From contig CAMHJX010000012.1 of the NCBI GenBank assembly GCA_946185535.1, positions 40,117 to 104,116 of the forward strand: a stretch of 64,000 nucleotides of DNA, read 5' to 3'. Position numbers and translations under genes: made by a program. Of this stretch, positions 2,009 to 52,298 are shown one piece after another (position 1 is the first letter of the stretch; each line of letters starts with the position of its first letter). This DNA is from an uncultured Bacteroidales bacterium (GTDB lineage: Bacteria; Bacteroidota; Bacteroidia; Bacteroidales; F082). The notes beneath the pieces are model-generated. The model was not told where the DNA came from. It ran no database searches and saw nothing but the letters and a program-made list of their open reading frames with translations.

Positions 2009-3805
2009 TTAATTGTTGTCTTCAATCGTCCGTGCAATCTTCTCAATGTTCAAGCTGCGTGCCGAAGCATCGATGATGTCCTTATAGATACCACCTTTCT
2101 TGTAGATTTCGTCTGGGTCGCCCGACTCTTCCACATGGCCAGTCTTGAGGGCGTAAACCATTTCGCTGTCGATGATTTGTGAAATGCTGTGCGAGATGAT
2201 GATGACGGTGCGGTCTTTCTTGATGGCATCAAGGCTATTCTTGATTTGCTCGGTGGCGATGGCATCGAGGCTGGCAGTAGGTTCGTCAAGGAAGATGATG
2301 GGCGGGTTCTTGAGGAACATGCGCGCGATGGCGATGCGCTGCTGCTGACCACCAGAGAGGTCGGAAGCCTTGTTTTCGAACTGCTTCGGTAGCTCCATGA
2401 TTTGGTCGTAGATGTACGATTTTTTGGCGGCTTCCACCACCTCCTCATGGGTGGCATTGGGATTGCCGTAAAGGATGTTTTCCTCAATGGTGCCGTCGAA
2501 AATGTGGTTCTTCTGCAACACGAGGCCGATGTTCTCACGCAGGAACTTGGTGTCGTATTCGCGCAAGTCGACGCCGTCAAGGGTAATAATACCCGTCTGC
2601 GGCTCGTAGAACTTGTCCAAGAGGTTCACAATGGTGCTCTTGCCCGCACCCGACAGACCCACCAATGCCGTGATCTTGTTTGGCTCAATGGTCATGTTCA
2701 CATCGAAAAGGGCTTGGTTACCATTGGGATAGGTGAAATTGACATCTTTCATTTCGAACTTGCCGTGGATCTTTTCTGGCTTGTAGCTGCCTGATGGTTC
2801 CACTTCCTCTTCTGCGTCAAGGATACCGAAGAAGCCCTCGGCATAAATCAAAGCGTCGTTCACATCATCGAAGATACGCTGCAACTGTGTGATGGGGGCG
2901 ATGACGTTGCTGAACAGCATCACATGGTACATGATCTTACCGATAGTCATGCCTGGATAGTCTATTAATACAAGGTATGCCGTCAGGATGATGACCAACA
3001 CCGTGCCGACCTGCTTCACAAAGCTCTTGACACCGTTGTAATAGAAAGCCACCTTTCGGGTTTTCATCTGGTTTTCAGTTACTTGGTTTTGTATATCAAG
3101 TTGCTTTTGACCTTCAATCTGCTCGCGGTTGAAGCTCTTGATGACATTGATGGAGTCGATGATGTTCTTGATGCCTTGGCTCTTGGTCTCCAAGTGCGAC
3201 CGCATTTCGCGACGCCAGCCTTTGAGGCGGCGAGCCTGACGGTAGGTAATCCAGAAATAAATAGGAACAATGGCAAGAGCTACTAGTCCTACATAGACAT
3301 TTGCCGCGAACATCAATATCAAAGCCAAAAGTGCGCTCGTGAACAGCGGCAATAGGTCGATGAAGAAGTTCTGCACCGTTCGTGATAACGAACTGACACC
3401 TTGGTCGATACGGGCCTGGAGCTTACCCGTGGCGTTGTCGCCCGAGTTGAAGAAAGCCATCTTGAAAGTGAGCACCTTCTCGATGACGCTTTGGGCCAAG
3501 TCGCGGCTGACATAGATACGCATCCGCTCTCCGAAATAGTTCTGCGCGAATGTGATGCCCGCCGAGAGTATTTCCTTGCCTAATAGCACAGATGAAATTA
3601 GGATGACAATGTGTGCCGCCCGCTGACCCCAGCGCTCACCTGCTGTGACAAGGCCGTTCACTTCATCCACGGTCCAATCGAGGACAATGGCATTGACCTG
3701 CGCCATCAGAGAACCAAGTAGGGTTAAGATCAAAGTGATGAAAACCAGCCATTTGTAAGGCTTTACGAAAGGGCTGACGTTTTTGAAGAGTTGAAATAGA
3801 TTCAT
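2009..3805 (-). CDS. ABC exporter, fused permease/ATPase (MsbA-like)
   Basis: 598 residues, the usual length of a half-size exporter. Membrane segments lie around residues 18-40, 62-90, 150-190 and 262-290. The nucleotide-binding domain starts near 350, with Walker A GLSGAGKS (383-390), ABC signature LSGGQ (483-487), Walker B IIFLDEP (503-509) and the H-loop in IIISHS. It should act as a homodimer in the inner membrane exporting a lipid, peptide or drug; the substrate cannot be read from sequence. It is transcribed alone between its own promoter and a strong terminator, divergently from mvaD. Confidence 0.9.
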   Translation of the reverse strand: MNLFQLFKNVSPFVKPYKWLVFITLILTLLGSLMAQVNAIVLDWTVDEVNGLVTAGERWGQRAAHIVILISSVLLGKEILSAGITFAQNYFGERMRIYVSRDLAQSVIEKVLTFKMAFFNSGDNATGKLQARIDQGVSSLSRTVQNFFIDLLPLFTSALLALILMFAANVYVGLVALAIVPIYFWITYRQARRLKGWRREMRSHLETKSQGIKNIIDSINVIKSFNREQIEGQKQLDIQNQVTENQMKTRKVAFYYNGVKSFVKQVGTVLVIILTAYLVLIDYPGMTIGKIMYHVMLFSNVIAPITQLQRIFDDVNDALIYAEGFFGILDAEEEVEPSGSYKPEKIHGKFEMKDVNFTYPNGNQALFDVNMTIEPNKITALVGLSGAGKSTIVNLLDKFYEPQTGIITLDGVDLREYDTKFLRENIGLVLQKNHIFDGTIEENILYGNPNATHEEVVEAAKKSYIYDQIMELPKQFENKASDLSGGQQQRIAIARMFLKNPPIIFLDEPTASLDAIATEQIKNSLDAIKKDRTVIIISHSISQIIDSEMVYALKTGHVEESGDPDEIYKKGGIYKDIIDASARSLNIEKIARTIEDNN

Positions 3806-3831
3806 GGAGTTTGCTATATATAATTAAGGTG

Positions 3832-3862
3832 CAAAAATAGGGATTTGGTTTTAAACTTCAAA
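3832..3862 (-). promoter_or_regulatory. Bacteroidota-type promoter of the ABC exporter
   Basis: The minus strand reads TTTG, 19-nt spacer, TATTTTTG (-7 box at 3832-3839), 26 nt upstream of the ATG. Confidence 0.75.
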
Positions 3863-3878
3863 TAAATCCTTATCTTCG
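3844..3878 (+). promoter_or_regulatory. Bacteroidota-type promoter of the mevalonate genes
   Basis: TTTG at 3844-3847, 23-nt spacer and TATCTTCG (3871-3878; one mismatch to TAnnTTTG), 20 nt before the mvaD ATG. It overlaps the divergent ABC exporter promoter, so the two may compete. Confidence 0.6.
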
Positions 3879-3898
3879 CAGCCTGAAACATATTGGAA

Positions 3899-4984
3899 AT
3901 GGAAAACAAATGGTTAAGCGAAGCCTTCAAAGGCGAGGTGCCAAGCGACTTTCAAGGCAAGGTGGGCTGGCAAAGTCCGTCGAACATCGCTTTGGTGAAA
4001 TATTGGGGTAAAAGAGGTAAGCAAATCCCTCAAAATCCATCGATTAGTTTTACCTTGTCGGAATGTCGTTCTGAGACATTCATCAGTTTTGAAAAAGCCG
4101 ACCGTTTCGGATTCAGATTCTTCTTTGAGGGCAAGGAGAATTCCGCTTTCGGCACGAAAATCGAGAAGTTCCTGCTCGACAACCAAGCGTTTTTCACGTT
4201 CATCAACCAACTAAATCTGAAAGTCGAGAGCCGCAATACTTTCCCGCATTCCTCAGGCATTGCCTCGTCGGCTTCTTCGATGAGTGCTTTTGTGATGTGT
4301 TTGCTTGACATCGAATCCAAGTTGGTCGGCCCTTCGACAGGCTCAGGGTCCTTAGATTTATGCAAGGCTTCTTACCTCTCGCGATTGGCCTCGGGTAGTG
4401 CGGCACGCTCGGTGTATCCAGAAATGGCACTTTGGGGGACAACGGACTGCTACAAAGATAGTTCTGATGAATATGCCGTTTCGTTGGCAGATGACATTCA
4501 TTCCGTTTTCAAAACCTACCGCGACAGCATTTTGATTGTCAGCGGTGAACAAAAATCCGTTTCCAGTCGTGCTGGTCATGCCTTGATGGAAGGCAATCCC
4601 TATGCCTCGGCGCGTTATGTACAAGCGAACGATAACATTAAAACATTGCTTGCTGCCTTGAAATCGGGCGACTTGGACACCTTTATTAATATAACGGAGT
4701 CGGAAGCCTTACAGCTTCACGCCTTGATGATGTGCTCCAACCCATCCTATATCTTGATGAAACCCAATACAATGAATCTTGTCAACGAAATTCGGGAGTT
4801 TCGTCATGAAACCAATATCCCACTCTGTTTCACTTTGGATGCCGGCCCTAATGTGCATCTGCTCTATCCTGAAAGTGAAGTTGAAAAAGTGGAGTATTTC
4901 ATCAAGAATGTTTTAGAGAAATATTGTGATCAAGGCCGTTGGATTGCCGATCAGGTGGGTGAGGGGCCGAAAAAACTACAGTGA
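3899..4984 (+). CDS. mvaD: Diphosphomevalonate decarboxylase
   Basis: 361 residues from the ATG at 3899; a TTG six bases earlier is a less likely start. Catalyses ATP-dependent decarboxylation of diphosphomevalonate to isopentenyl diphosphate. Family signatures visible: SNIALVKYWGKR near the N-terminus, SSGIASSASSMSA (phosphate-binding loop), SRLASGSAARSVY and FTLDAGPNVH with the catalytic Asp. Just before the ASGSAARS block a Gly/Ser-rich insertion, GPSTGSGSLDL, is encoded by a palindromic repeat that also occurs between genes (see the repeat entry). The stop overlaps the start of the next GHMP kinase by one base, so the two are translationally coupled. Other mevalonate-pathway genes are not in the window. 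Confidence 0.92.
   Translation: MENKWLSEAFKGEVPSDFQGKVGWQSPSNIALVKYWGKRGKQIPQNPSISFTLSECRSETFISFEKADRFGFRFFFEGKENSAFGTKIEKFLLDNQAFFTFINQLNLKVESRNTFPHSSGIASSASSMSAFVMCLLDIESKLVGPSTGSGSLDLCKASYLSRLASGSAARSVYPEMALWGTTDCYKDSSDEYAVSLADDIHSVFKTYRDSILIVSGEQKSVSSRAGHALMEGNPYASARYVQANDNIKTLLAALKSGDLDTFINITESEALQLHALMMCSNPSYILMKPNTMNLVNEIREFRHETNIPLCFTLDAGPNVHLLYPESEVEKVEYFIKNVLEKYCDQGRWIADQVGEGPKKLQ
4330..4358. repeat. Palindromic repeat inserted in frame in mvaD
   Basis: The core CCCTTCGACAGGCTCAGGG (4330-4348) plus flanks matches, over about 35 bp, the intergenic copy around 30412-30444. It is read through in frame as part of the mvaD protein. The inverse complement core (TGAGCCTGTCGAA) occurs in wecB and at 30382. 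Confidence 0.8.
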
Positions 4985-5922
4985 TGAAAGAGCGTTATTA
5001 TAGCAAGGTCATCCTTTTCGGTGAGTATTCAATGATTTTTGATGCCACTGCTTTGATGATTCCTTTGACCAAATTCTCGGCCCAGTGGCGTTTCGCCTCC
5101 CATTTGGATGCCAATGGGGGAGCGGCTTCCAATGCCAGTCTCAAACGGTTTGCAGATTATCTTTCGACTTTGGAAGATGTGAAAGATATTATTGATTTGC
5201 AGCGTTTTAATCATGATTTGCGTTACAATCTCTTTTTGGAGTCCAATGTGCCTTCGGGTTATGGTCTTGGCAGCTCTGGGACATTAGTGGCTGCCGTTTA
5301 TGATGGCTATACCAAGCAAAAGACCGATGATTTGCTGCAGTTGAAAACGCTGTTCGGCAAGATGGAAAGCTATTTCCATGGTAGCAGTTCGGGCATCGAT
5401 CCACTGCAATGCTATGTGGGCAAGCCCTTCAAAATCACGCCTGAAGGTGCGCAGTTGCTTTCCAATGACTTCCTGCAAAAGGATATCCATATCTGTTTGA
5501 TTGACACGAAGATTAAGAGCAACACCAAGCCTTTGGTGGACCACTTCAAGCGACAGCGCGAGGATGCCGCTTTTTTGAACCGTTTCCAAAGCGAGTATGT
5601 GCCTTGTGTGACCTCCTGTATTGATTCGATGGTTGCAGGTGATACCAACCTGTTTTTCAAGTTATTGAAGCATCTTGCTAAAGGCCAGTTGGAATTCCTT
5701 CGCCCGATGATTACGGAGAACACTTTGGACTTGTTTACCGCCAATTACGACTTCAACTTTGGTGTAAAGATCTCTGGCTCAGGTGGTGGCGGCTATGTGT
5801 TGGGCTTCACTGATGATGTTGACAAAACAAACAAATTGCTTGGCTTTGAAGGCATAGATTCCAATCGCGCAGGCTTTGCAAGGAATGACATGCCTTCAAA
5901 GTTTGATGTTATTTGGCTCTAA
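4984..5922 (+). CDS. GHMP kinase, probably mevalonate kinase
   Basis: 312 residues starting at the ATG that overlaps the mvaD stop (TGATG). Three GHMP-kinase motifs are visible: KVILFGEYSMIF at the N-terminus, PSGYGLGSSGTLVAA (ATP phosphate loop, about residues 84-98) and KISGSGGGGYVLGF near the C-terminus. The N-terminal motif (normally FGEHSVVYG in mevalonate kinase) and coupling to mvaD point to mevalonate kinase, which phosphorylates mevalonate with ATP. The protein is divergent, and a phosphomevalonate kinase role cannot be excluded. Confidence 0.75.
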   Translation: MKERYYSKVILFGEYSMIFDATALMIPLTKFSAQWRFASHLDANGGAASNASLKRFADYLSTLEDVKDIIDLQRFNHDLRYNLFLESNVPSGYGLGSSGTLVAAVYDGYTKQKTDDLLQLKTLFGKMESYFHGSSSGIDPLQCYVGKPFKITPEGAQLLSNDFLQKDIHICLIDTKIKSNTKPLVDHFKRQREDAAFLNRFQSEYVPCVTSCIDSMVAGDTNLFFKLLKHLAKGQLEFLRPMITENTLDLFTANYDFNFGVKISGSGGGGYVLGFTDDVDKTNKLLGFEGIDSNRAGFARNDMPSKFDVIWL

Positions 5923-5935
5923 ATTGCTATTTTTG
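5902..5935 (+). promoter_or_regulatory. Bacteroidota-type promoter of gtrA, near leaderless
   Basis: TTTG (5902-5905), 22-nt spacer, TATTTTTG (5928-5935). Only 8 nt separate the -7 box from the gtrA ATG, so the 5' leader would be 0-4 nt. The -33 element lies inside the end of the preceding coding region. Confidence 0.6.
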
Positions 5936-5943
5936 CAGCCTCA

Positions 5944-6450
5944 ATGTCAGCCCTGAAAAACATAGAATCTTGGATTGAACGTACTTTGACCTCGGTCATC
6001 GACTTTTTTTATCCACCATTCCGTAAGGTGATGAGCCTCGAACTGTTCCGCTATGGTGCCTGTGGTGGCCTAAACCTTGTCTTGGAGTGGGTGCTGTACT
6101 ATGTTTTTTATCATTTCGTCTTCCACGGACAGGTGTTTGACCTCGGCTTCATTGCTTTCACGCCTCATATTGCCGCATTCGTGTTCAAGTTTCCCATCAC
6201 TTTCCTCACAGGTTTCTGGATGGCAAGGCATATCAGTTTCTCTGGCTCCACGCTGAAGGGTAGGACACAAATTGTCAGGTATTTCCTTGTGACCATTGGC
6301 AATATCCTCATCAATTACTTTGGTCTGAAACTCTTCGTTGAAGTGTGGCATATTTGGCCGACCATCTCCTACATTATCATCTCTGTCATCTGCGTGACGT
6401 TCAGCTATTTGACGAACAAGTTCTATTCGTTTAGAAAAGAAAAGAAATAA
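5944..6450 (+). CDS. GtrA-family membrane protein
   Basis: 168 residues with four predicted membrane helices (about 37-60, 72-98, 110-130, 138-158) and the GtrA-type motif FRYGACGGLN before helix 1 and SYLTNKFYSFR at the C-terminus. GtrA-family proteins act in transfer of lipid-linked sugars or related polyprenyl substrates across the inner membrane. The position directly after two isoprenoid-precursor genes is compatible with a polyprenol-linked role, but this is inference. Nine bases separate it from the next gene, so the two are probably cotranscribed. Confidence 0.85.
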   Translation: MSALKNIESWIERTLTSVIDFFYPPFRKVMSLELFRYGACGGLNLVLEWVLYYVFYHFVFHGQVFDLGFIAFTPHIAAFVFKFPITFLTGFWMARHISFSGSTLKGRTQIVRYFLVTIGNILINYFGLKLFVEVWHIWPTISYIIISVICVTFSYLTNKFYSFRKEKK

Positions 6451-6459
6451 ATCGCCACA

Positions 6460-8166
6460 ATGAGAAAGTTCTTTCTTCTGATGCTCGCCTTCCTCTTTTT
6501 GAGCGCTAAGGCCCAAAGCAAAGACGAGGCTTTGCCTTTGCCGGATAGCTTAGCAGAACGGCTACAACAAAACCGGAAGGCCGATGAGGCAAGGGCTGAG
6601 GCTTTGGATAAGGCAATTATGTTCTATGTGGATGAAAACAGGGTATTGGATGCCCAGCTTTATATTCGAGAATTGGAATCTTTGTCGGAAGAGTTGAAAG
6701 AGAATTATTGGAATGCTTTAAGCCTGTATTACAAAAGCCTATGTGCATATTCAAACTATGATTTCTCTGAGTTCTTGTCACTGATAAATGAGTCTTTGCA
6801 AATGACGGAAATGCAACGTGACACGAAACGGACGCGCTTGCTGACCACTCGTATTTATTTGGCAAAAAGCGCTTTTTGCCTTCATATCAATCGATTTGCC
6901 GAATGCAACGAATATATAGAAAGAGGTGTCAAATTGGCCGAGGACAACAGTTTTTCACAACTCAAGAACAAGCTTCTTAATAATTACGGACTATTGTTGA
7001 TGAGAATGGAAAAATATGAAGAAGCCATCATACAATTCAAGGCGTTGAATCCGTATGATGTGGAACGGACGGGCGTCTTGCTCAATATCGCCGTCACCTT
7101 TGACCAATTGGAACAATATGACTCCGTTTTCTTCTATATTGACTCTCTTATACATTATGCCCAGGCAAATAGTGAAAGCAGTATTGTAAGGGGCAACCTT
7201 AACAAGGCTTATGGGGTGAAAGCAGCATGTTACATGGAGTTGGAACGGTGGGACGATGCCATACATTGTTTAAGCCTTTCCAGTGAGATGTTGGAAGGAT
7301 ATGAAGATAAAAACTTGCTGGCTATCCATAACTTGCATTTGGCAAGGGCTTATTTTGGAAAAGGGGAGTATGAAAAGTCGCTTTCTGCCATACAAGAAAG
7401 CAGAGCCTTGTCAAGAGCAACCCAAAACATTGAAAACGAATGGCTTGCCGTCAAATTTGAATCTGATATTCTGGAGAATATGAAAGACTATGCGAGGGAA
7501 GTTGAAAACTTGCGCTACTTCATTGCTTTGTCGGATACTATCAACAACCGTGAAAAACTGGAGAAGATTCAGGAACAGAAGTACCAACAAGAGGCACTGA
7601 TGATAGAACAGCAATACCAGCTGCAACAACAGACTTCGCGCCAACGGCAACAGAACATCATCATATGGGCTTCTGTCATTGTGATAGTTTCCATACTGAT
7701 AGCCATACTTATCATGCTGAACAGGAAGCGTTTGGCGGCGGAATTAGAACTTCGTAACCGTGAAATTACAGCCAAGTCGATAGGCAAGATGCAAAGCAAC
7801 GAGATGCTGAATGATGCTATAGGGAAATTATCCGAAATGGAGAAGCATCCTGAGAAAAACATATTGCCTGGCGTGATTCGTGACCTGAAAATGCTTATTG
7901 ACGCCGACACGAAGAAAGACTTTGATTTGCATTTCATTCAGATGCACCCTGATTTCTACGAAAGGCTTTTGGCAGACTTCCCCAAACTCACCCAAAATGA
8001 GCTTCGGCTTTGCGCTTTTGTCAAATCCAACCTCAACATCAAAGAAATAGCGGCCATTAATGGCATTTCGGCGGAATCGGTGAAGACGGCAAGAAAGCGT
8101 TTACGCAAATCTTTGAACTTGACGGGCGAAGATATTACGTTGTTGGAGTTTTTATCAAAATACTGA
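6460..8166 (+). CDS. Membrane-anchored TPR protein with C-terminal helix-turn-helix
   Basis: 568 residues: signal peptide (1-18), tetratricopeptide-like helical repeats (about 45-360), a Gln-rich coiled coil (about 362-398), one membrane helix (399-420), a second coiled coil, and a C-terminal LuxR-like HTH containing NIKEIAAINGISAESVK and ARKRLRKSL. This architecture is common in Bacteroidota and is read as a sensor with periplasmic TPRs and a cytoplasmic DNA-binding end. It ends 157 bases upstream of a T9SS cargo gene with its own promoter, a possible target. Ligand and regulon are unknown. Confidence 0.8.
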   Translation: MRKFFLLMLAFLFLSAKAQSKDEALPLPDSLAERLQQNRKADEARAEALDKAIMFYVDENRVLDAQLYIRELESLSEELKENYWNALSLYYKSLCAYSNYDFSEFLSLINESLQMTEMQRDTKRTRLLTTRIYLAKSAFCLHINRFAECNEYIERGVKLAEDNSFSQLKNKLLNNYGLLLMRMEKYEEAIIQFKALNPYDVERTGVLLNIAVTFDQLEQYDSVFFYIDSLIHYAQANSESSIVRGNLNKAYGVKAACYMELERWDDAIHCLSLSSEMLEGYEDKNLLAIHNLHLARAYFGKGEYEKSLSAIQESRALSRATQNIENEWLAVKFESDILENMKDYAREVENLRYFIALSDTINNREKLEKIQEQKYQQEALMIEQQYQLQQQTSRQRQQNIIIWASVIVIVSILIAILIMLNRKRLAAELELRNREITAKSIGKMQSNEMLNDAIGKLSEMEKHPEKNILPGVIRDLKMLIDADTKKDFDLHFIQMHPDFYERLLADFPKLTQNELRLCAFVKSNLNIKEIAAINGISAESVKTARKRLRKSLNLTGEDITLLEFLSKY

Positions 8167-42523: not shown

Positions 42524-45500
42524 TTACTTCACGACCACTTTCTGGACCTTCATGTTGTCGCCGTTGATCAGGCGGAGCATGTAGACACCGGCGGCACCGT
42601 CCACGCTGACGTTGGCGCAGCCGTTGATGGTCTCGCTCTTCAGGACGCGGCCGGTAACGTCGATCACTTGCAGGGTGGCTTCACCCTCGTTGTTGATGAC
42701 GAAGCTTCCGTTGCTGAAGAAGGCGAAGTTGTCGTCGTTGCTGTTGTTGCCGGTGGCGAACACGAGCTTGAAGCGGCTTTCGTAGTCGGTCGTGCTGGCC
42801 TCGAAGCTGTAGCTAGGAGTGCTGAGCAGGTCGACGTCGTTGCCGGTGAGGTTGTCGATGAGGTGCAGGTAAGCGAACTCAACGTTGTCGTTGCTGAAGT
42901 TCAAGCTGTAGGTGCCATTGCTTTCGGCCTTGAAGTTGACAGGCATTTCGCCAATCTCTTCAGCGCGCACCACGGCGTAGTCTTTGTCGTCCATCGGGAT
43001 GTAGACCTTGGTGCTGTTCTGGTTGAATTGCAGTTTGGGCAATTGGCGGCATTCGCTAAAGCGGATGAAAGCACGGTCGATGACATTGTTGCCTTGGCTC
43101 AGGTTGAGGGCCAGTCTATTGCCCGTCTTTGCAGGAGCAGTAGTGGTGAAAACGACTTCCTCGTTGTCTTCTTCGGCGGTGACGAACACGCCTTCCGCGA
43201 CTTCGATATGTCTTGCATCTTCTGCACCAATGGGTACAAATGCAGTAGCTGCGCTATTCATAGTATAGTAATCGCGGTTGTCTGCGAAGTAAGCATTATC
43301 AGTGTAGGGGTTACCCACGAGGTTCCAGCCAGCGAAACGTGCATCATCATTTCTTTTCAGCTGAACCGGGTAATCGCTTTCTGTAGCAGGAATGCCGTAG
43401 AAGATCAAGTCGACATCAGTATTGTGTGCATAGAGATAGCCCTTGCCGATTTCGAGGCCGAAGCCACCCAAATCATTATTAGCGTCACCTTTATAGTTGA
43501 TCCATTCATTGCCGTATCCATCAGTGTTCTGGTCGAAGTAGTAGAGGTCGTAGCTGTTGCTGAGCATATTGGTCACATCTTCGGGAGCTACATCGCCAAA
43601 GGGCGGGGCAATGAGGTACCAGTTGCCGGTGCCAGTGCCATAGCCAGTGATGGACTTGATGTATTTTTCACAAACGAACACTGTGGAAGGAGTGTGTTCA
43701 TAAGGAATGCGAGTTGCAGGTTGACCGTTATTATAATTGCAAGTGAAGTTGGCTGCATCCATAGGTTCAACATAGAATGTATAAGTACCGAGTTCGGCTT
43801 CCGCCAAGACAGTGAATTCCATGGTGAACATAAGACCTGTTACCGTGGTAGGACTGCCAGCAGGTTGTACGAAGGCAACTCTAACAACGCCATCGCTAGG
43901 ATAGCTGAATTGCTTCAACATACAAGCATTACCCACTGCACCATAAGTAGGATCAGCAGTGTGTTCGAATATGGTATTGTCATAATAAAGGTGAACACCG
44001 AGGCTGGTGAAACCGTCATAGTTGCCACTGGCAGGAGCTGCCATGTAGGCTTCCACAGTGATGACATCGCCGGGTAGGGCATTGGCTGGGGCAGTCACGG
44101 TGAACTGGACAGCGTCCGGGTTAGAGGTCACGGTCACGGTGATGGTGGCAGTGACTTCAGGATTCGAAACGGAGGCAATAGTGATAGTGGTTTCGCCCAC
44201 GCCCATGCCAGTCACAACGCCGTTTTCATCGACGGTGGCGATGGTTGCGTCAGCCACAGTGAAGGTGACGCTTTGATCGGTGGCATTGGCAGGAGCCACA
44301 GTGTAGCTGATGGTGGCAGTCTCGCCAGTGACCACGGTGACATTCTCAGCGGTGATGCCAGTGACATCAATACCGTTCACGGTCACATCGATGGTGGTGC
44401 TGACATTCGAGCCGTCGGTGGCAGAGATGGTGATGGTGGTGGTACCCACGGCAACGCCAGTCACAACGCCAGCGTCAGTGACGGTGGCGACGGTTTCGTC
44501 ATTCGAAGTGTAGGTGACAGCCGGGTTGGTGGCATCGGTAGGAAGCACTTCAAGACCGGTGATGGGGGCAGTTTGGCCAATAGTTACGGTGACATCGTCA
44601 GCGGTGATGCTTTCGACGAGGGTGCCATCAGGAGCCAACTCAGCGTTGGTGATGATCATATAGTCAACGTTGAGGACAAACATATCCGTGACATTGAAGT
44701 GGCGGATGGCCAAATAGACAATCTGTCCGGCATAGGTATCAGGAATGTTGGCCGAGTATTGCACATAGCTACCCGTGGCAACAAATTCACTGGAGATGGC
44801 CGTCATGCTTGCAGGATCGGGTGTGGTGCCGATATACACCTGGAAGTGTTCCGCAGCATAACTCGCGTCTTGACCTTGTGCGTAGAGATAAACGACAGAA
44901 GGACTGTTCAGGATGTGAATGCCAGGGGTGATGGCCCAGTTGTCAGGAGTGAGGGCTGTTCCTCCACTACCACTCTCATTATTATGATATGACTCAGAAT
45001 AAATCGAACCATTGTTTTCATATGGTGTCATGTGTGAATTTCCCGACTCTTCTTCATAATAGTCCCATCCCCAGCCGTAGCCGTCGCCGTCGCTATCGAC
45101 AAAGGTCCAGCCTTCTTCGTTCGGGTCGGTCTCAAAGTCGAAGATGAGGCCAACAAATGGTGTCACTTCCACATTGATGGTGGTGGAGACTTCAGGATTC
45201 GATACTGAGGTGAGGGTGATGGTGGTCGTGCCTGCAGCAACGCCAGTCACCAAACCACTTGCACTGACGGTGGCAACCGAAGTGTTGGCCGAGGTGAAGG
45301 TCACTGCGGGGTTGGTGGCATCAGCTGGCAAAACGGTGTAGTCGATTTGGGCCGAGAAGCCTGCCATCATAGAAAGGTTGGAAGCCGTGATGCTCTCAAC
45401 AGGATTGGGGGCGGCTTCAATCGTGAATTTCACCTGGTTCTTGGAGTTTTGTGCAGTGTAAGAAAGATTGGTGGATGTCGGATTGTAATTAGTGTTGGTG

Positions 45501-46651
45501 GTATTTTGGGCGCCATGAATATAGATGGCCTGATTGTTGGCAGTGAAGACGCGGAAATTAGTTGCATTGTTGGCTGCTGTTCCGGTATTGTCATCCACGA
45601 TGAGGACTACATTGCCACCCGTGTATTCGAAAGGCGTATCGAAAGTAATCTTGGTCCAAGCGTTCGCAGTAAAGCTGACGCTGCCAGAATACACCCTGTC
45701 GCTCGTGGTGGGATGGAAAGCGGTGTTCGAAGCGATGGTGCTTTGGGTCGTGTTCACCATATAGATATCGAGGTTACGTGTAGCTGCTCTACTACCATAG
45801 AATGAGACGCTGGTGATGTTGCCGCCGTCGGTATGACCGATTTCAGTGGCGGTGTAAATTTGTTGCGTCAAAGAATACCTTCTTTGTGTGCGGGTGGGCA
45901 CGTAAGCGTTAGTGTTTGTTCCGCTGCCGATGGTGATTTCTTCTTCCGGCATTCTGCTGAAAACGCTGAAGTCGTCAACAAAGAGATAGGAACCGTCGTA
46001 GCAGTTGTAGTGGCGGATGTAAATCTCGATGGTTTGTCCAGCGTAGGCGCTCAGATCAACCTCGCAATACTCATAACTACCGGTACTGATCGTGAAGTCA
46101 GAACCGACCTGATGGAAGTATTCATCATTTTCAGGAGCCACATAAATTGCCATGGTCTCAGAGGTGCCCCATTCATTAGCTCTATAAGCTTGGGCATAGA
46201 TGCCAGCGAAATACTGTGCACTGCCAGCGGGTAGTGTGATGGCGGGCATGATGATGAAGTTGTCAGGCTGAATTCCCACTCCATTGTCGAAGTCGTAGGA
46301 TTCACTGCCTAAGGCATAGTCACCACTGACGCCAGTGGTTCCAACACCATTATACCAACCCCAAGAGAAATCATCTTCATTGTAATCGATGACGCTGACG
46401 CCTGACAATTCGGCCTGGCTGTTGAATCCGTTGGAGTACAGCACATTGTCGCGGGTGTTAACAGTAGCTCTGTGGTACACCTTACCAGGTTGGAAGTCCT
46501 CGATGGTCTGGAGTTGTCCTGCCACTTCGAATTGAAGCTCAGGTCTTGGAGCGCGGGTGACATTTTTTCTTAGTCTTTGCGTTTGTGCATTCATTGCCAA
46601 CGGCACGAAGAGGGCCACCAGCAGCATGATGAGTAATGATTTTCTTTTCAT
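42524..46651 (-). CDS. Giant T9SS-sorted surface protein with Ig-like and cohesin-like domains
   Basis: 1375 residues. Signal peptide 1-22 (ending MNAQ). In order: an anchor-J/MAM-like beta-sandwich (about 72-232), a Bacteroidota-type beta domain (about 240-412), BIG2 Ig-like domain (418-496; TSVATVSASGLVTGVAAGTT), second anchor-J domain (500-670), two BIG2 domains (678-758, 762-842), and a cohesin-like domain (about 845-994). The last shows ALPGDVITVEAYM, LGVHLYYDNTIFE and DGVVRVAFVQPAG. A C-terminal beta region ends in a sorting domain (VTGRVLKSETING, AGVYMLRL, KVQKVVVK). It lies directly downstream of two dockerin-bearing proteases, so it may be their scaffold; this is inference. It has its own promoter. 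Confidence 0.85.
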   Translation of the reverse strand: MKRKSLLIMLLVALFVPLAMNAQTQRLRKNVTRAPRPELQFEVAGQLQTIEDFQPGKVYHRATVNTRDNVLYSNGFNSQAELSGVSVIDYNEDDFSWGWYNGVGTTGVSGDYALGSESYDFDNGVGIQPDNFIIMPAITLPAGSAQYFAGIYAQAYRANEWGTSETMAIYVAPENDEYFHQVGSDFTISTGSYEYCEVDLSAYAGQTIEIYIRHYNCYDGSYLFVDDFSVFSRMPEEEITIGSGTNTNAYVPTRTQRRYSLTQQIYTATEIGHTDGGNITSVSFYGSRAATRNLDIYMVNTTQSTIASNTAFHPTTSDRVYSGSVSFTANAWTKITFDTPFEYTGGNVVLIVDDNTGTAANNATNFRVFTANNQAIYIHGAQNTTNTNYNPTSTNLSYTAQNSKNQVKFTIEAAPNPVESITASNLSMMAGFSAQIDYTVLPADATNPAVTFTSANTSVATVSASGLVTGVAAGTTTITLTSVSNPEVSTTINVEVTPFVGLIFDFETDPNEEGWTFVDSDGDGYGWGWDYYEEESGNSHMTPYENNGSIYSESYHNNESGSGGTALTPDNWAITPGIHILNSPSVVYLYAQGQDASYAAEHFQVYIGTTPDPASMTAISSEFVATGSYVQYSANIPDTYAGQIVYLAIRHFNVTDMFVLNVDYMIITNAELAPDGTLVESITADDVTVTIGQTAPITGLEVLPTDATNPAVTYTSNDETVATVTDAGVVTGVAVGTTTITISATDGSNVSTTIDVTVNGIDVTGITAENVTVVTGETATISYTVAPANATDQSVTFTVADATIATVDENGVVTGMGVGETTITIASVSNPEVTATITVTVTSNPDAVQFTVTAPANALPGDVITVEAYMAAPASGNYDGFTSLGVHLYYDNTIFEHTADPTYGAVGNACMLKQFSYPSDGVVRVAFVQPAGSPTTVTGLMFTMEFTVLAEAELGTYTFYVEPMDAANFTCNYNNGQPATRIPYEHTPSTVFVCEKYIKSITGYGTGTGNWYLIAPPFGDVAPEDVTNMLSNSYDLYYFDQNTDGYGNEWINYKGDANNDLGGFGLEIGKGYLYAHNTDVDLIFYGIPATESDYPVQLKRNDDARFAGWNLVGNPYTDNAYFADNRDYYTMNSAATAFVPIGAEDARHIEVAEGVFVTAEEDNEEVVFTTTAPAKTGNRLALNLSQGNNVIDRAFIRFSECRQLPKLQFNQNSTKVYIPMDDKDYAVVRAEEIGEMPVNFKAESNGTYSLNFSNDNVEFAYLHLIDNLTGNDVDLLSTPSYSFEASTTDYESRFKLVFATGNNSNDDNFAFFSNGSFVINNEGEATLQVIDVTGRVLKSETINGCANVSVDGAAGVYMLRLINGDNMKVQKVVVK
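43670..44119 (-). other. Cohesin-like domain within the giant surface protein
   Basis: Residues about 845-994. The order of elements follows type I/II cohesins: PGD near the start of a strand, LxxxYDxxxxE (HLYYDNTIFEHT), a G-V-R-V-A-F strand, and a LMFTMEFTVLAEAELGTY strand corresponding to the conserved FATIxFKVK...GxY region. Similarity is by eye only. Confidence 0.55.
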
Positions 46652-46708
46652 TGTGTAGTTTTTTGTTTAATGATTTGTATTATTTGTGTTTGTTCTTTAC
46701 TTATTATG

Positions 46709-46785
46709 TGGCTATCAGCCGTCAGCTATCAGATATCAGCTTGGTTGAACCGGGCTGATTGCTGATGGCTGAAAGCTGACTGCTA
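46709..46785. repeat. Family B iterated-word palindrome, copy 3
   Basis: Arms 46709-46740 and 46754-46785 built from NNTCAGC heptamers, the same word as copy 1. It lies in the leader of the giant surface protein between its promoter and start codon. Confidence 0.85.
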
Positions 46786-46845
46786 TATTATAATCTCGCG
46801 TCTTTTATGTAATCTGTTTATGCTCATCTATTTAATTTCGGGCTG

Positions 46846-46874
46846 CAAAAATAGTGAAAATTAATGACATACAA
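46846..46874 (-). promoter_or_regulatory. Bacteroidota-type promoter of the giant surface protein
   Basis: Minus strand: TTG (46874-46872), 18-nt spacer, TATTTTTG (46853-46846), giving a leader of about 190 nt that includes a family B palindrome. The 385-nt gap 46652-47036 contains only this promoter and two palindromes. Confidence 0.75.
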
Positions 46875-46908
46875 GTAACAGTTTAAATTAATTTTATTAT
46901 TTGCCTTC

Positions 46909-46991
46909 GAGACTATAACCTGTGACTATGACCCGTGACTGCTTTCACTTCCGTTGAAGCGGTCATGGTCATTGTCACAAGTCATTGTCTC
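46909..46991. repeat. Family B iterated-word palindrome, copy 4
   Basis: 31-nt arms (46909-46939 and 46961-46991) with the word TGTGACTATGACC and variants; GAGAC at the outside pairs with GTCTC. It lies 45 nt downstream of the stop of the second C25 protease gene. Confidence 0.85.
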
Positions 46992-47036
46992 TATATTTTG
47001 GCTCAATTTACTCATGTACCTGTTTTTGTACCTTTT

Positions 47037-49565
47037 TTATTGGTTCATGTATAATGCCAACAGCACAGAAACGTCGTCGAGGGTGATGGCATTATCTCCG
47101 TTAACATCGGCATTGAGGAGCGCCTGGTCTGAGAGTTGGACACTTCCCATGACATAGCCAAGAAGAATGGAGACGTCATCAAGAGTGATGGTCCCGTCGC
47201 TATTCACATCGCCAGGGATACCTGCGGCCAAGGTGGTGAAGCTCACTTGCTCGCCATAGGCGGTGCCGGCGCTGTTGGTGGCGTAGGCGCGCACGTAGTA
47301 GGTCGTGTTGGCTTCGAGGCTTGTCATGGAGCTGGTGAAGCTTCCGGTGCCTGTGCCGTCGGTGGTATGGCTGTCGTTGATGGTCGGGTTTTGTGCCGTG
47401 CTCCAGCAGATGCCGCGAGCCGTCACGGTGGCGCCGCCGTCAGCGGTGACGTTGCCGCCGCCTATGGCTGTGGTCTTGTCGATGTTGCTGATGGCTATGG
47501 TGGTCACGGTGGGTGCCACTGCCGGATTGGCAACCGTGATGGTTTGGAGATCTGTCATCTTATTGTAACCGAACACACAGAGGGTGAGTTCTGTGCCAGC
47601 GGTCAAAGTGCCGTTGAGGGTGATGGTGGCGGTGCCGCCGCTCACCGTGGCCTTACCTAATATAGTATGGCTGGCATCGGTGATGGTGGCCACGGCGCCG
47701 TTGCCGTTGCTGACGTTCACCGTATAGGTGCCGCCAGTAGGGGCGATGGTACCAGCGTGGGTGACGGTCATGGCCTGCGGGGTCTTGGTGCGAAGCATCA
47801 AAGTCGGGTCACCATAGAGCACCCAGGCTTGGTAGGTACCCTTGGCCGAATTATCAGAGGTGCTGTAATGGTCAAAGATGGCAAACAAGCTGTTGACACC
47901 TACGCCACCCAACGTATGTTTGATGTTGTTGCTTTTGAGTTCACAGAGGATATCGACAAACTCGTCTTGTGCCCACATGGGCGGAATCCAAGGTTGTGAG
48001 ATATAGGAGAAGAAACCACCGATAGCTCCGGTTGGATTGGAACCATTGGTGGCGTGCATCCATGTCTCAGCGAAGCAGTCTCCACTGGAGTAATCATATT
48101 TACCCACCAAACAAGCTACTGAGAAAATGAACGGCAGCTTGTTGTTGTTGGTCAAGGCGTTGACGTTGGAATTCATGTAGTAGTGCGACTGCCATCCTGT
48201 CTCTTCACCATGGTTGCAGTAGTTGATGATACCCACACCACTATTGATATGGTTGCTGATGGTGGTGGTGGTTGAGCTAGGATAGCCGCTTACACTCTTA
48301 TAGTCTTGATAAACAGTGGTATATCCGTAATTCAACAAGTCGGTGCGAAGATTTTCGATGTGTTGGTAGTCATCTTCGCTATTGTGACCTCCACTACCTT
48401 CTGTAGTGCTGATGCCCAAACCGTTTTGGCACCATGTGGCGCTGGTGGTAAGGTCTCTTTCGTAGGTGAGGATACGGTTGACCTGTGTGGTCACTTGAGC
48501 TGCGCTGCTGGCGGAGAAGCGACCGATGAAAAGGTCATTGTATATATCGTTACCAACGATTTGGCCATAAAGGTTATCCCCCTTTCCGCTATAACTGGTA
48601 CTTCCAGAGCCTGCTGTGTATGTATAGCCGGGAATCTGGGCCACGTCACCGACGAGCAGCACGTGAGTCAGGTTGTTGTTGGCGTTGTACTGGTTCTTGA
48701 TGTACGTCTGGATAGCCGAATAGGTTGAACCGGCGGTGCTGGTGCCCACGATGGTGGTGTTGATGCCACGGGTCTTCTTCCAATTGACGAAATCCGTCAT
48801 CGAGCTGATGAAGTTGTCGTAGCAGATGATGAGCAGGTCGCCTTCCTCATCGACAGGCGTGTATCTGTTCATAGCAGCTTGGTAGTTGATGAAGTGTCGC
48901 TCATACATGTTCTTGAAGTCGGAGCTCATCTTCACCGTGTTGCTGCGGCGGGAAGTCATGACATTCTCGCCGTTGTCGTCCACCTTGTACATCTCCACGG
49001 TCATGTCGTAGTAGACGCGGAGGGTCTTGGTGACGGGGTTGTAGGCGAAGGGATAGACCACCATGTTCTGGCCACGGAAGTCGCGGATGATGTAGGGGTC
49101 ATAGAGGCCCACATTGCTTGCTGGGAAGAATGCATTCTGGTTATAGCATTCGCCGTAGGTGTAAGGCACGGTGGCAGGATCGATGCTGCGCGGGAAGTCG
49201 CCCTTCGAGGGGGCCACTTCGATGCCTTCGAAGTCCTGATACTTGGCGTTGACCACACGGATGTCCATGCGGGCTTGGTCGCCAATCATCACGGGGATAC
49301 CAGTCATAGGCACATTAGGTTCGCCCGCCTGGGCCGTGCTGACGGCCTTGGGCATGGTGACAACGTAGGCTTCACCACGGGGCGTGGTCACGGCAGTCAT
49401 ATAGAATCCCGGGACCTGGAGTCTGACTCGGGTCTGGTCTTCGGATGAGGAGACCAACACCTTCTTGAAGGACTCAGGTGTGCCACTGGTGATACTCGTC
49501 CATTCTTGCGCCATGGTGGTCAGGGCAAGGCAGAGAACGAAGAATGAAAGAAATGCTTTTTTCAT
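47037..49565 (-). CDS. Gingipain-like C25 cysteine protease with C-terminal dockerin (second of pair)
   Basis: 842 residues. Signal peptide 1-19 (ending TMAQ); propeptide_C25-like region about 25-225; C25 caspase-fold protease about 240-600 with LLVGDVAQIPG, catalytic His452 in IINYCNHGEETGW and Cys485 in FSVACLVGKYD. Then an Ig-like region (about 605-685), an Fn3-like domain (about 690-780; ARGICWSTAQNPT, TTYYVRAYATNSAG) and two dockerin-type calcium loops (DVNSDGTITLDD and DVNGDNAITLDD) at the very end. No T9SS sorting domain follows. Gingipains cleave after Arg or Lys; specificity here is unknown. It follows its paralogue by 24 nt. Confidence 0.88.
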   Translation of the reverse strand: MKKAFLSFFVLCLALTTMAQEWTSITSGTPESFKKVLVSSSEDQTRVRLQVPGFYMTAVTTPRGEAYVVTMPKAVSTAQAGEPNVPMTGIPVMIGDQARMDIRVVNAKYQDFEGIEVAPSKGDFPRSIDPATVPYTYGECYNQNAFFPASNVGLYDPYIIRDFRGQNMVVYPFAYNPVTKTLRVYYDMTVEMYKVDDNGENVMTSRRSNTVKMSSDFKNMYERHFINYQAAMNRYTPVDEEGDLLIICYDNFISSMTDFVNWKKTRGINTTIVGTSTAGSTYSAIQTYIKNQYNANNNLTHVLLVGDVAQIPGYTYTAGSGSTSYSGKGDNLYGQIVGNDIYNDLFIGRFSASSAAQVTTQVNRILTYERDLTTSATWCQNGLGISTTEGSGGHNSEDDYQHIENLRTDLLNYGYTTVYQDYKSVSGYPSSTTTTISNHINSGVGIINYCNHGEETGWQSHYYMNSNVNALTNNNKLPFIFSVACLVGKYDYSSGDCFAETWMHATNGSNPTGAIGGFFSYISQPWIPPMWAQDEFVDILCELKSNNIKHTLGGVGVNSLFAIFDHYSTSDNSAKGTYQAWVLYGDPTLMLRTKTPQAMTVTHAGTIAPTGGTYTVNVSNGNGAVATITDASHTILGKATVSGGTATITLNGTLTAGTELTLCVFGYNKMTDLQTITVANPAVAPTVTTIAISNIDKTTAIGGGNVTADGGATVTARGICWSTAQNPTINDSHTTDGTGTGSFTSSMTSLEANTTYYVRAYATNSAGTAYGEQVSFTTLAAGIPGDVNSDGTITLDDVSILLGYVMGSVQLSDQALLNADVNGDNAITLDDVSVLLALYMNQ

Positions 49566-49589
49566 ATTGATAATATTACATGGTTATCA

Positions 49590-52298
49590 TTAAAGGCTCA
49601 TGACTATCGCCAACAGCACAGAAACATCATCGAGGGTGATTGCATTATCTCCGTTAACATCGGCATTGATGAGCGCCTGGTCTGAGAGTTGGACATTTCC
49701 CATGACATAGCCAAGAAGAATGGAAACGTCATCGAGGGTAATATCATTGTCGTTGTTCACATCTCCAGGAACGCCGTCAGGCAAGGTGGTGAAGCTCACT
49801 TGTTCGCCGTAGGCGGTGCCGGCGCTGTTGGTGGCGTAGGCGCGCACGTAGTAGGTGGTGTTGGCGGTGAGGCCGGTCATGTTGCTGGTGAAGCTGCCTG
49901 TGCCTGTGCCGTCGGTGGTATGGCTGCCATCAACGGTGGGGTTCTGCGAGGTGCTCCAGCAGATGCCGCGTGCCGTCACGGTAGCACCGCCGTCAGCAGT
50001 GACGTTGCCGCCGCCTGTGGCGGTGTTTTTGTCGATGTCGGCGATGGCCGTGGTGGTCACAGTAGGTGCCGTTGCAGGAGTGACAACAGTGATGGTGCCG
50101 AAATAGGGTTGGTATTGCTGGCGGGTGACGACCACATGGAGGGTGCCGCTGGTGGGGATGGCATTGGTGAAGTTCACGGTAGCCACGCCCGAGGTGTTGG
50201 CCACGCCCACGCCGTAGATGACCGAGCTGTTGTCGGTGATGGCGACATAGGAGCCTGCCAAGGCGTTAACGGTGATGGAGGTGGAACCAGCGTTGACAGT
50301 GCTGGGTATCGTCACGGTGTTGGCTTCCGGCTTGGTGATATAAGGCATTACGGAGCCGTCGCCGAAGCAGTGATAGAACTGGAAGTAGTAGTGGGCCGAG
50401 TTTCTGGTGTTGCCATCGGTGATGCTGGAATTTGTTCTGCCATCATTGACGGCTTGCTGCACGGCGAGGTTGCCGAGATACAGCAGTGCTGAGGCCGAGT
50501 TCCAGTATTGGTCTTGGAACATGACATCGTAGACACCTTTAGTTGAGTTTGTGACTGACGGGGCACTGCCTGCTGAATAGGCGTGAGCTCCAACGGCCCA
50601 GTAGAAGTCCTCATACCAGTAGGAATAAGGCGAGCAACCCACATACGCAATGGCACCTGCATTGGGGACGCGAATCATCGTTTCGGCGAAGCAGGCGTTA
50701 GTGCCTATGGCAGAACCAGGTGAATAGGTTGTCATGGTGCTGTTGAAGTTACCTGTCAAGCAGCAGTTGCCAACGCCGAAGAAATACTTACCTGTGTTGG
50801 AAAGCGTAGCAACTTGGGCTGCTGTCATCAGAGGCTGAGTCCATTCCTGCTTGTCGCCGTGGGCGGTGTAGTTCAAGAAGCATACACCGTTGTTGATGCC
50901 TTGATAAACACCATTGTTGCTGCCGCTGTAACCTTGTGATGACGATGTTGAAACCGTAGCTCTGATGGTGCCGCTGCCAAAGCCGCCGTAGGTGGTGTTG
51001 CTTGATTTGAAATAATTGTTGGTGCCATAGTTGATGGTGGGTTTGGCAACCTTAGGGGTCCAGTTTGAATCCCAACCGCCAACGAGGATGACATTGTTCA
51101 AATAGTTACCGCCGTCGGTGAACTCGAATTTTTCGTAAGTCAACACCTTATTAATATAGTTGGTCAAATGTGTGGTGTTCTCCACCGATATACGGCTGTA
51201 GTACATGTCAGGGAAATAGTTGGTAGTGCTTGTCGAGAAATTGACACTTGCATAACCGAGGTCGGAAGCGCAATTGCCTATGTCAGAGTCTATGTTTTTG
51301 TTCATGTATTGCGGCACTTGTCCAGTATCACCAATCACAATCAAATAAGTGTAGGCGTTGCCTGCTGAGACAGAAGCGTTGTACTTGGTCTTGATGAACG
51401 AAGCGATGGCACTTGCTGTGGTGCCAGCATTGTTGGTGCCAGAACCAGTATAATAGATGTCCACATAGTAGCCCTTTTGCAACTTCCATTGCAGCCATTC
51501 TTCCAGTTTGCTATTTCCCTGGAAGCCCGAATAGCAGATCACCAGCATCTTGACCGGCGTATTGTACATATCGGGGTGGTCGGTGTAGGCGTCTTTGGTT
51601 CCGTTTGCCATCAGCATGTCGACGTTGAAGATTTGGTCGTAGACACTGTAGAAGGCGGGACTGAAGGTGCTCTTAAACATCTGAGTCGTGGCTTCGGCGT
51701 CGCCGTTTTGGAAATCGACGCTCACCTCGATGTCGTTGAACACCTTCACGGTGCCGGCGGCGGGGTTGTAGCGCACGGGTTGCACGATGAGACGGCCGAG
51801 GGTGATGCCACGCATGGTGCCGAGCACCTCAACCGTTGCAATCGGGTTGTCGTTGTAGCTGTTGCGGGTGTATGCGGCCTCGTTGAAGGCGTATTCCACA
51901 GTGTTCGGGTCAATGTCCTTGCGGGCAGGAGCCTGCATGGCGGAGACTGTGCCCATGCCATAGTCGCTCAAAGTGTATTCCGTTTCGGAATGGCCACCTA
52001 CCGAGACAACGGGCGTAGCGCCTGTGGGGATGGCGATGAGCCTGGTAAACATCGGCAACTGAGGCTCACCAACGTTACCGTTGGGGAAGGTGCCTTCGAT
52101 GTAGATTTCCGAGAGCTCACCACGAGTGGTTTCGATGGTGGTGCCTTCAAGGCTGGAAAAAGAGAACGAAGCCTTGAGGCCCGTCATGTCGCTCTTTACG
52201 CATTCAACTTTGTCGGTCGAACGCAACTGAATCTTTTGCTGTGCCATGACACTGACACCGAGTATCAAAGTCATTGCAATGAGGAAAAGCTTCTTCAT
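49590..52298 (-). CDS. Gingipain-like C25 cysteine protease with C-terminal dockerin (first of pair)
   Basis: 902 residues. Signal peptide 1-19 (ending VMAQ); propeptide-like region about 25-235; C25 domain about 248-650 with YLIVIGDTGQVPQ, catalytic His480 in CFLNYTAHGDKQEW and nucleophile Cys513 in GNCCLTGNF. Then an Ig-like region, an Fn3-like domain and a dockerin pair (DVNNDNDITLDD, DVNGDNAITLDD). The catalytic half is clearly diverged from the other protease, but the last 155 residues or so are nearly the same. First gene of a two-gene operon. Probably a surface-bound or secreted endopeptidase. Confidence 0.88.
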   Translation of the reverse strand: MKKLFLIAMTLILGVSVMAQQKIQLRSTDKVECVKSDMTGLKASFSFSSLEGTTIETTRGELSEIYIEGTFPNGNVGEPQLPMFTRLIAIPTGATPVVSVGGHSETEYTLSDYGMGTVSAMQAPARKDIDPNTVEYAFNEAAYTRNSYNDNPIATVEVLGTMRGITLGRLIVQPVRYNPAAGTVKVFNDIEVSVDFQNGDAEATTQMFKSTFSPAFYSVYDQIFNVDMLMANGTKDAYTDHPDMYNTPVKMLVICYSGFQGNSKLEEWLQWKLQKGYYVDIYYTGSGTNNAGTTASAIASFIKTKYNASVSAGNAYTYLIVIGDTGQVPQYMNKNIDSDIGNCASDLGYASVNFSTSTTNYFPDMYYSRISVENTTHLTNYINKVLTYEKFEFTDGGNYLNNVILVGGWDSNWTPKVAKPTINYGTNNYFKSSNTTYGGFGSGTIRATVSTSSSQGYSGSNNGVYQGINNGVCFLNYTAHGDKQEWTQPLMTAAQVATLSNTGKYFFGVGNCCLTGNFNSTMTTYSPGSAIGTNACFAETMIRVPNAGAIAYVGCSPYSYWYEDFYWAVGAHAYSAGSAPSVTNSTKGVYDVMFQDQYWNSASALLYLGNLAVQQAVNDGRTNSSITDGNTRNSAHYYFQFYHCFGDGSVMPYITKPEANTVTIPSTVNAGSTSITVNALAGSYVAITDNSSVIYGVGVANTSGVATVNFTNAIPTSGTLHVVVTRQQYQPYFGTITVVTPATAPTVTTTAIADIDKNTATGGGNVTADGGATVTARGICWSTSQNPTVDGSHTTDGTGTGSFTSNMTGLTANTTYYVRAYATNSAGTAYGEQVSFTTLPDGVPGDVNNDNDITLDDVSILLGYVMGNVQLSDQALINADVNGDNAITLDDVSVLLAIVMSL

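Follow-up and report, generated by a model that had tools for sequence, protein, structure and literature searches.

A candidate cohesin–dockerin surface complex of two gingipain-like proteases and an adhesin in an uncultured Bacteroidales bacterium

Where would two gingipain-like C25 proteases be held that end in dockerins and have no recognised sorting domain for the type IX secretion system (T9SS)? The question is raised by a three-gene locus in a 64,000-nucleotide stretch (the window) of contig CAMHJX010000012.1 from an uncultured Bacteroidales bacterium (assembly GCA_946185535.1), in which the two protease genes are followed by a gene for a 1375-residue adhesin. We propose, at a probability of about three in four, that the locus encodes a cohesin–dockerin protease complex of the cell surface. 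Sec would take the Lys- and Arg-gingipain-like enzymes into the periplasm, and beyond it nothing recognised would move the two tail-less enzymes. Calcium-dependent binding would join their near-identical C-terminal dockerins to the one cohesin of the adjoining adhesin, which its T9SS sorting domain would bring to the cell surface and anchor there. The result would be a surface Arg/Lys protease–adhesin complex made by docking, with the genes left unfused. The host and its relatives are probably rumen bacteria, to judge from the names of related genomes.

Both proteases share one plan, consisting of a signal peptide (recognised by eye), a propeptide, a catalytic domain, an Ig-like domain, a linker domain and a terminal dockerin; Pfam reports the C25 propeptide, catalytic domain and C25 Ig-like domain of gingipain-type enzymes in each. 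The 902-residue protease matches Lys-gingipain in the PDB (4rbm, E=2.6e-100, residues 236-741; gingipain R just 1.4e-11), and the 842-residue protease matches gingipain R (1cvr, E=6.2e-95, residues 235-678; Lys-gingipain 2.4e-16). We therefore call them Lys- and Arg-gingipain-like, and the corresponding cleavage specificities are predicted. The aligned motifs contain His480 and Cys512/513 in the Lys-type and His452 and Cys485 in the Arg-type enzyme, conserved residues that we take to be catalytic. Dockerin_1 (PF00404), the family of type I dockerins, scores above its 22.9-bit cut-off at both C-termini (Table 1), and phmmer matched the Arg-type dockerin to the XynY dockerin chains 2ccl (E=2.1e-4) and 1ohz (E=2.9e-4) in the PDB. 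Two calcium loops are present in each of the seven dockerins aligned, both window dockerins included. Pfam and NCBIfam scans up to E=1 reported neither Por_Secre_tail nor TIGR04183 in either protease, and Pfam and NCBIfam reported no adhesin region with a T9SS tail in the protease chain as in RgpA/Kgp. Over the linkers of the proteases, and only there, an NCBIfam arabinosidase model (NF049889, cut-off 600 bits) scores 44.5 and 40.4 bits through its positions 35-133 of 639; this match is read as an accessory domain in common. Pfam reported no glycoside hydrolase catalytic domain or carbohydrate-binding module (CBM) in the three proteins.

The genes are transcribed in the order 902-residue protease, 842-residue protease, adhesin, with gaps of 24 nt and then 385 nt. 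The adhesin, or scaffold, contains three Big_2 and two Cleaved_Adhesin stretches by Pfam, and residues 505-669 match Lys-gingipain adhesin domains in the PDB (4itc, E=7.5e-17; 3m1h, E=3.6e-10); DUF2436 was not reported in the Pfam scan. Its T9SS tail scores 31.3 bits with TIGR04183 (cut-off 23) and 17.7 bits with Por_Secre_tail, below the cut-off of 27. The original prediction had held that both proteases end in dockerins and lack a T9SS sorting domain, and that the next gene on the same strand encodes a T9SS-sorted protein of 1375 residues with three BIG2 domains. The family matches agree on each count and add the two Cleaved_Adhesin stretches, which it had not mentioned. Promoter and terminator scans gave numbers close to shuffled expectation (13 vs 9.9; 15 vs 10.1) and were left out of the argument.

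Table 1. Features of the protease–adhesin locus, in window coordinates
Feature	Position	Strand	Evidence
Lys-gingipain-like C25 protease, 902 aa	49590..52298	minus	ORF + Pfam, NCBIfam, PDB sequence match
Dockerin of Lys-gingipain-like protease, residues 844-902, two calcium loops	49593..49769	minus	Pfam PF00404 24.0 bits
Arg-gingipain-like C25 protease, 842 aa	47037..49565	minus	ORF + Pfam, NCBIfam, PDB sequence match
Dockerin of Arg-gingipain-like protease, residues 784-842, two calcium loops	47040..47216	minus	Pfam PF00404 30.3 bits
Scaffold/adhesin, 1375 aa: Cleaved_Adhesin x2, Big_2 x3, cohesin-like domain, uncharacterised region, T9SS sorting domain	42524..46651	minus	
Lys-gingipain-type Cleaved_Adhesin domain of scaffold, residues 506-664	44660..45136	minus	Pfam PF07675 + PDB matches
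Cohesin-like domain of scaffold, residues 844-994	43670..44122	minus	Pfam PF00963 + hhalign
T9SS type A sorting domain of scaffold, residues 1315-1375	42527..42709	minus	TIGR04183

The partner of the dockerins would be residues 844-994 of the scaffold, which we read as a divergent cohesin. The cohesin fold is a jelly-roll. Scanned alone, this domain has Cohesin (PF00963, E=9.1e-5) as its sole Pfam family up to E=10. With hhalign it scored 88.8% (E=2.5e-6) against an alignment of 41 cohesin stretches from relatives, which are Pfam Cohesin matches at E<=0.001 (36 of them above cut-off); six control domains from the same proteins scored at most 0.4%. The cohesin-like stretch that had been placed at residues 845-994 or thereabouts is thus related to cohesins by profile. 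The best PDB matches of the domain, to CFA/I pilin fusions, span some 30 residues (E=0.0016; 9.4e-8 for the whole trimeric fusion) and were judged meaningless. A local profile search detected this one cohesin stretch in the scaffold, fewer than the multiple cohesins by which a cellulosome is recognised. Because each scaffold has one cohesin, it would hold one enzyme at a time, and the two enzymes would therefore compete for sites or occupy different scaffold molecules.

Copies of the domain were found in 4 of 99 genus genomes and in 4 of 149 relatives, the same four in both counts (the window's own genome, G000, with G004, G008 and G073), and in all four the genes directly upstream of the scaffold encode dockerin enzymes. 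In G004 and G008 these are dockerin-tailed Lys-type and Arg-type C25 enzymes, as in the window. In G073 an M14 zinc carboxypeptidase with a C-terminal dockerin (L037:8615-10843) stands in the gingipain-like enzymes' place, and a further dockerin open reading frame (ORF) is cut by the contig end. The docking module is thus common to unrelated peptidases beside one type of scaffold. In G008 the gene after the scaffold (L038:1-3207) is HagA-like, with DUF2436, Cleaved_Adhesin and Big_2.

Dockerins and cohesins also go together in the wider genus. Across the 90 genus genomes of the relatives set (G000-G089), Pfam finds a cohesin in 14, the window-type domain is present in four more, and 28 have a dockerin. 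Dockerins are present in all 18 genomes that have a cohesin and in 10 of the 72 that have none (Fisher 3.5e-12, uncorrected for shared ancestry). The distance from each listed cohesin to a listed dockerin is 0.85-8.2 kb in 17 of the 18. The remaining genome is G004, whose dockerins beside the cohesin are present in the DNA, though not among the matches listed. Chance adjacency was rejected on these data, with shared ancestry as a caveat. Conserved adjacency and co-occurrence had been put forward as a check on the idea that the giant protein could be a surface scaffold that captures the proteases; both were found, and together with the cohesin relationship they support that idea at the level of sequence.

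The window's own genome (3.67 Mb, 86 contigs, 93.5% complete) shows an exclusivity at the locus. Its Pfam dockerins at E<=0.001 number two, both at the ends of the window proteases, and one copy of the cohesin-like domain was found, in the gene next to them. Matches to C25 number 18 in the same genome, and those to T9SS tails at least 150, with 150 of 202 candidates scored. Ten of the 16 C25 genes besides the window pair have a T9SS-tail match in frame among the matches listed. One of these ten is the Arg-type enzyme's closest paralogue in the genome (C4, 57.8% over 680 aa).

Among the other C25 genes, two adjoin each other on contig C17 (L112:3-3314, 3314-6754) and have PorU-like ends by eye; they are possibly the T9SS sortase and a paralogue. 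Three Lys-gingipain-like C25 proteins (C57 twice, C7; L113, L114) are without a T9SS tail among the matches listed and have another, GHGYIY-like C-terminal domain in common, as seen by eye. This ending resembles the end of some cohesin proteins in the genus that lack the T9SS C-terminal domain (CTD), and it is possibly an unrecognised sorting or anchoring domain. One C25 ORF of C57 runs off its contig.

Within a genome the two dockerins resemble each other far more closely than the enzymes that carry them, being 84, 95 and 98% identical in G000, G004 and G008 where the enzyme bodies are 27-30% identical. Between these three genomes orthologous dockerins are 45-48% identical, linkers 84-94%, Arg-type bodies 77-88% and Lys-type bodies 47, 48 and 90%. 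At the nucleotide level, five between-genome comparisons gave 46-68% identity over the last 180 alignment columns and 78-98% over the next 240. The scaffolds of the three genomes are 81-83% identical in the Big_2 domain that directly precedes the cohesin and 47-54% in the cohesin. Loop positions 9-14 agree between each dockerin's repeats and differ among genomes (TLDDVS; [SG]INDVS; T[VT][YF]DVI; SIDDVS). Repeat symmetry of clostridial cellulosome dockerins goes with dual binding, and Clostridium thermocellum dockerins that recruit single enzymes to the surface have a single binding mode, according to the available text of PMC5429695. Because of the latter, the repeat symmetry in the window is not decisive.

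Several results weigh against a cohesin–dockerin complex at this locus. The Cohesin score of the domain is 23.1 bits, below the curated cut-off of 24.1, and two of the four members of the domain match the model; Pfam did not report Cohesin for it in the scan of the full-length scaffold or, at E<=0.001, anywhere in the whole-genome scan. Three cohesin subgroups taken separately gave 0.5, 41 and 28% as hhalign targets and 1.3, 15.7 and 4.1% as queries. No cohesin chain came up when PDB sequences were searched with the domain or with its four-row profile. The domain might then be an Ig- or CBM-like adhesin module that merely resembles cohesins, and any association of proteases and adhesin would come about by other contacts, as in Porphyromonas. 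The single Pfam family reported for the window copy and the 88.8% against all 41 cohesins, beside same-protein controls at or below 0.4%, argue against this, and we consider it quite improbable.

The divergence pattern and the co-occurrence have weaknesses of their own. The scaffold 3' of the cohesin is nearly as divergent as the cohesin itself (53-62%, CTD 42-52%), and gene conversion between neighbouring paralogues can make like 3' ends without any binding partner. The cohesins of G004 and G073 are 72% identical and their dockerins 47-49%, which rules out a simple mirror divergence of the two modules. The genus association carries no correction for common descent. The dockerins could bind something else or serve as calcium-stabilised end caps, with the adhesin an unrelated neighbour. 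Four dockerin loci at which no cohesin was found in the stretch (G027, G049, G061a, G078) fit such an account, as do cohesin-less dockerins in Bacteroidales single-cell genomes described in PMC10266427. It agrees poorly with the confinement of dockerins and domain to this one locus of the genome, with the 18/18 co-occurrence and the dockerin neighbours in all four genomes with the domain, and with the joint change of both dockerins of a genome; we regard it as unlikely. A docked protease–adhesin complex remains our preferred explanation.

Since the sorting domain is on the scaffold only, that complex could also leave the cell as one unit, the enzymes docking in the periplasm and the folded assembly crossing the outer membrane through the T9SS. 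This addition to the proposed complex we hold to be possible, at somewhat less than even odds. No sorting domain was recognised in the window enzymes; the dockerin is also the end of their four C25 orthologues in G004 and G008 and of the G073 M14 enzyme. The T9SS moves folded proteins (PMC9251779, available text), so that a docked pair could plausibly be exported together. A CTD is present on at least one partner in 25 of 25 judgeable dockerin/cohesin pairs (G076 left out); this count is partly expected because T9SS tails are common in these bacteria, with at least 150 in the window's genome. In the four window-type pairs the CTD is on the cohesin protein only. Seven pairs have it on the dockerin protein only (G002, G047, G050, G063, G065, G067, G077), six on both (G005, G025, G041, G044, G070, G074; some weak, E up to 0.006), and in eight it is on the dockerin protein while the cohesin ORF is cut. 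Vesicles, lysis or an unrecognised signal could also account for release, the three other tail-less C25 enzymes of the genome being a case in point, and hitchhiking through the T9SS was not found in the literature searched, as far as its accessible text goes. With a cohesin–dockerin pair such hitchhiking becomes testable.

Further pairs came from a local profile search over the ORFs of 29 stretches and the window, with G085 covered by a short stretch only. In one arrangement, a dockerin protein of some 1400 residues with a T9SS tail lies beside a two- or three-cohesin protein (L040, L041, L045, L050, L073, L074, L076, L079-L082); it is an S8 peptidase in both cases scanned (L040, L041), and in some of these pairs the cohesin protein is without a tail and has another domain at its end. 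In another, dockerin proteins of 617-1953 residues with a cohesin-like stretch of their own lie beside long three- or four-cohesin proteins (L042, L046, L048, L070-L072, L075, L077). The three of these that were scanned have a beta-helix (L042, L048, L075), and L042 and L048 also Kelch. In four stretches, those of G027, G049, G061a and G078, the same search found dockerins but no cohesin; dockerin proteins of this kind are those of L049 (G027) and L047 (G049), and the contig of G027, which has a clostridial look by eye, may have been binned wrongly.

Two genomes from other Bacteroidales families are rich in dockerins, with at least 38 matches in G092 and at least 40 in G137 (40 candidates scored each). 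The stretches taken from these two genomes (L121-L129, L130-L140) hold 36 dockerin ORFs, 28 of which were scanned. Fourteen of the 28 have a peptidase domain (C25 in six, C10 in three, M14 in three, S8 in two) and one an esterase-like domain; no glycoside hydrolase was found among them at the thresholds used. Sixteen of the 28 are without a CTD by local profile, ten having been chosen for that. Local profiles also show a 2466-residue protein of G092 with eight cohesin stretches and a CTD (L126:3477-10874). These data point to a broader, largely proteolytic cohesin–dockerin class. We tentatively extend this, at rather worse than even odds, to a separate class in Bacteroidales whose enzymes without a sorting signal would cross the T9SS pore as folded hitchhikers, docked on a partner that alone bears the CTD. 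The window would hold the minimal two-enzyme form of this class, a docked gingipain complex, and dockerin specificity would be replaced as a set between species. The dockerins that rumen Prevotella and polysaccharide utilization loci (PULs) carry on glycoside hydrolases (PMC7480376, available text) speak against the generality of such a class.

If the proposed complex exists, the rumen Bacteroidetes dockerins at this locus, members of a group whose role is termed undefined in PMC7480376, would serve to hold peptidases on a scaffold anchored by the T9SS. Evolution would then have found a second way of keeping adhesins together with gingipain-type enzymes of Arg and Lys type, and in the rumen cohesin–dockerin assembly would reach beyond fibre digestion to the digestion of protein.

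How does this arrangement compare with known systems? The original prediction knew of no description of such a protease complex. This holds in the narrower sense that no Bacteroidales gingipain–dockerin complex was found by title or abstract in the literature searched, with subscription journals mostly outside; the general idea has a precedent in Candidatus Stygibacter (PMC8542988), discussed below. Published surveys of related genomes differ in what they report. The genome of PMC5831590 is given as having no cohesins or dockerins, in line with other Bacteroidetes. PMC10266427 records dockerins in Alistipes, Bacteroides and a Bacteroidales single-cell genome and a cohesin in a Christensenellales genome only, and PMC5830445 describes 15 cow-rumen genomes with multi-cohesin proteins, nine of them near Ruminococcus flavefaciens (each as far as the available text goes). 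For the Prevotella and PUL dockerins, that of PMC7480376 names no Bacteroidetes cohesin partner.

The cellulosomes of clostridia and ruminococci share with the window the module families, the calcium-loop dockerins and the internal symmetry of the dockerin repeats. The window differs from them in its single cohesin, its T9SS anchoring and the lack of a reported glycoside hydrolase catalytic domain or CBM. For Ruminococcus albus it has been suggested that one cohesin holds dockerin enzymes singly at the cell surface (PMC6118326, available text); the window in contrast has proteases, a Bacteroidales host, the T9SS, and cohesin and dockerin genes that adjoin.

Candidatus Stygibacter (Cloacimonadota) has dockerin-bearing C25 gingipain-like and S8 peptidases and a CTD-anchored cohesin scaffold, and resembles the window in the C-terminal dockerins of its peptidases and in the surface attachment of the scaffold, both deduced from sequence as they are here. 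Its scaffold is 3,755 aa long with tandem cohesins and CBMs, and GH18 and GH57 glycoside hydrolases belong to the set (all from the available text of PMC8542988), whereas the window combines two proteases and adhesin domains with a single cohesin and has no CBM.

RgpA, Kgp and HagA of Porphyromonas gingivalis, like the window proteins, combine Arg- and Lys-gingipain-type enzymes, Cleaved_Adhesin domains and a T9SS tail. Their cleaved domains are held to one another non-covalently at the outer membrane, according to the available text of PMC5266723. In the window, separate genes encode protease and adhesin; the enzymes are without adhesin region and CTD and have dockerins, and the scaffold is without a reported DUF2436. 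Candidatus Stygibacter is thus the closest system in the use of modules and Porphyromonas RgpA/Kgp/HagA the closest in working. The predicted complex looks like the Porphyromonas protease–adhesin complex rebuilt by docking, one that would work like it without being a member of the same system.

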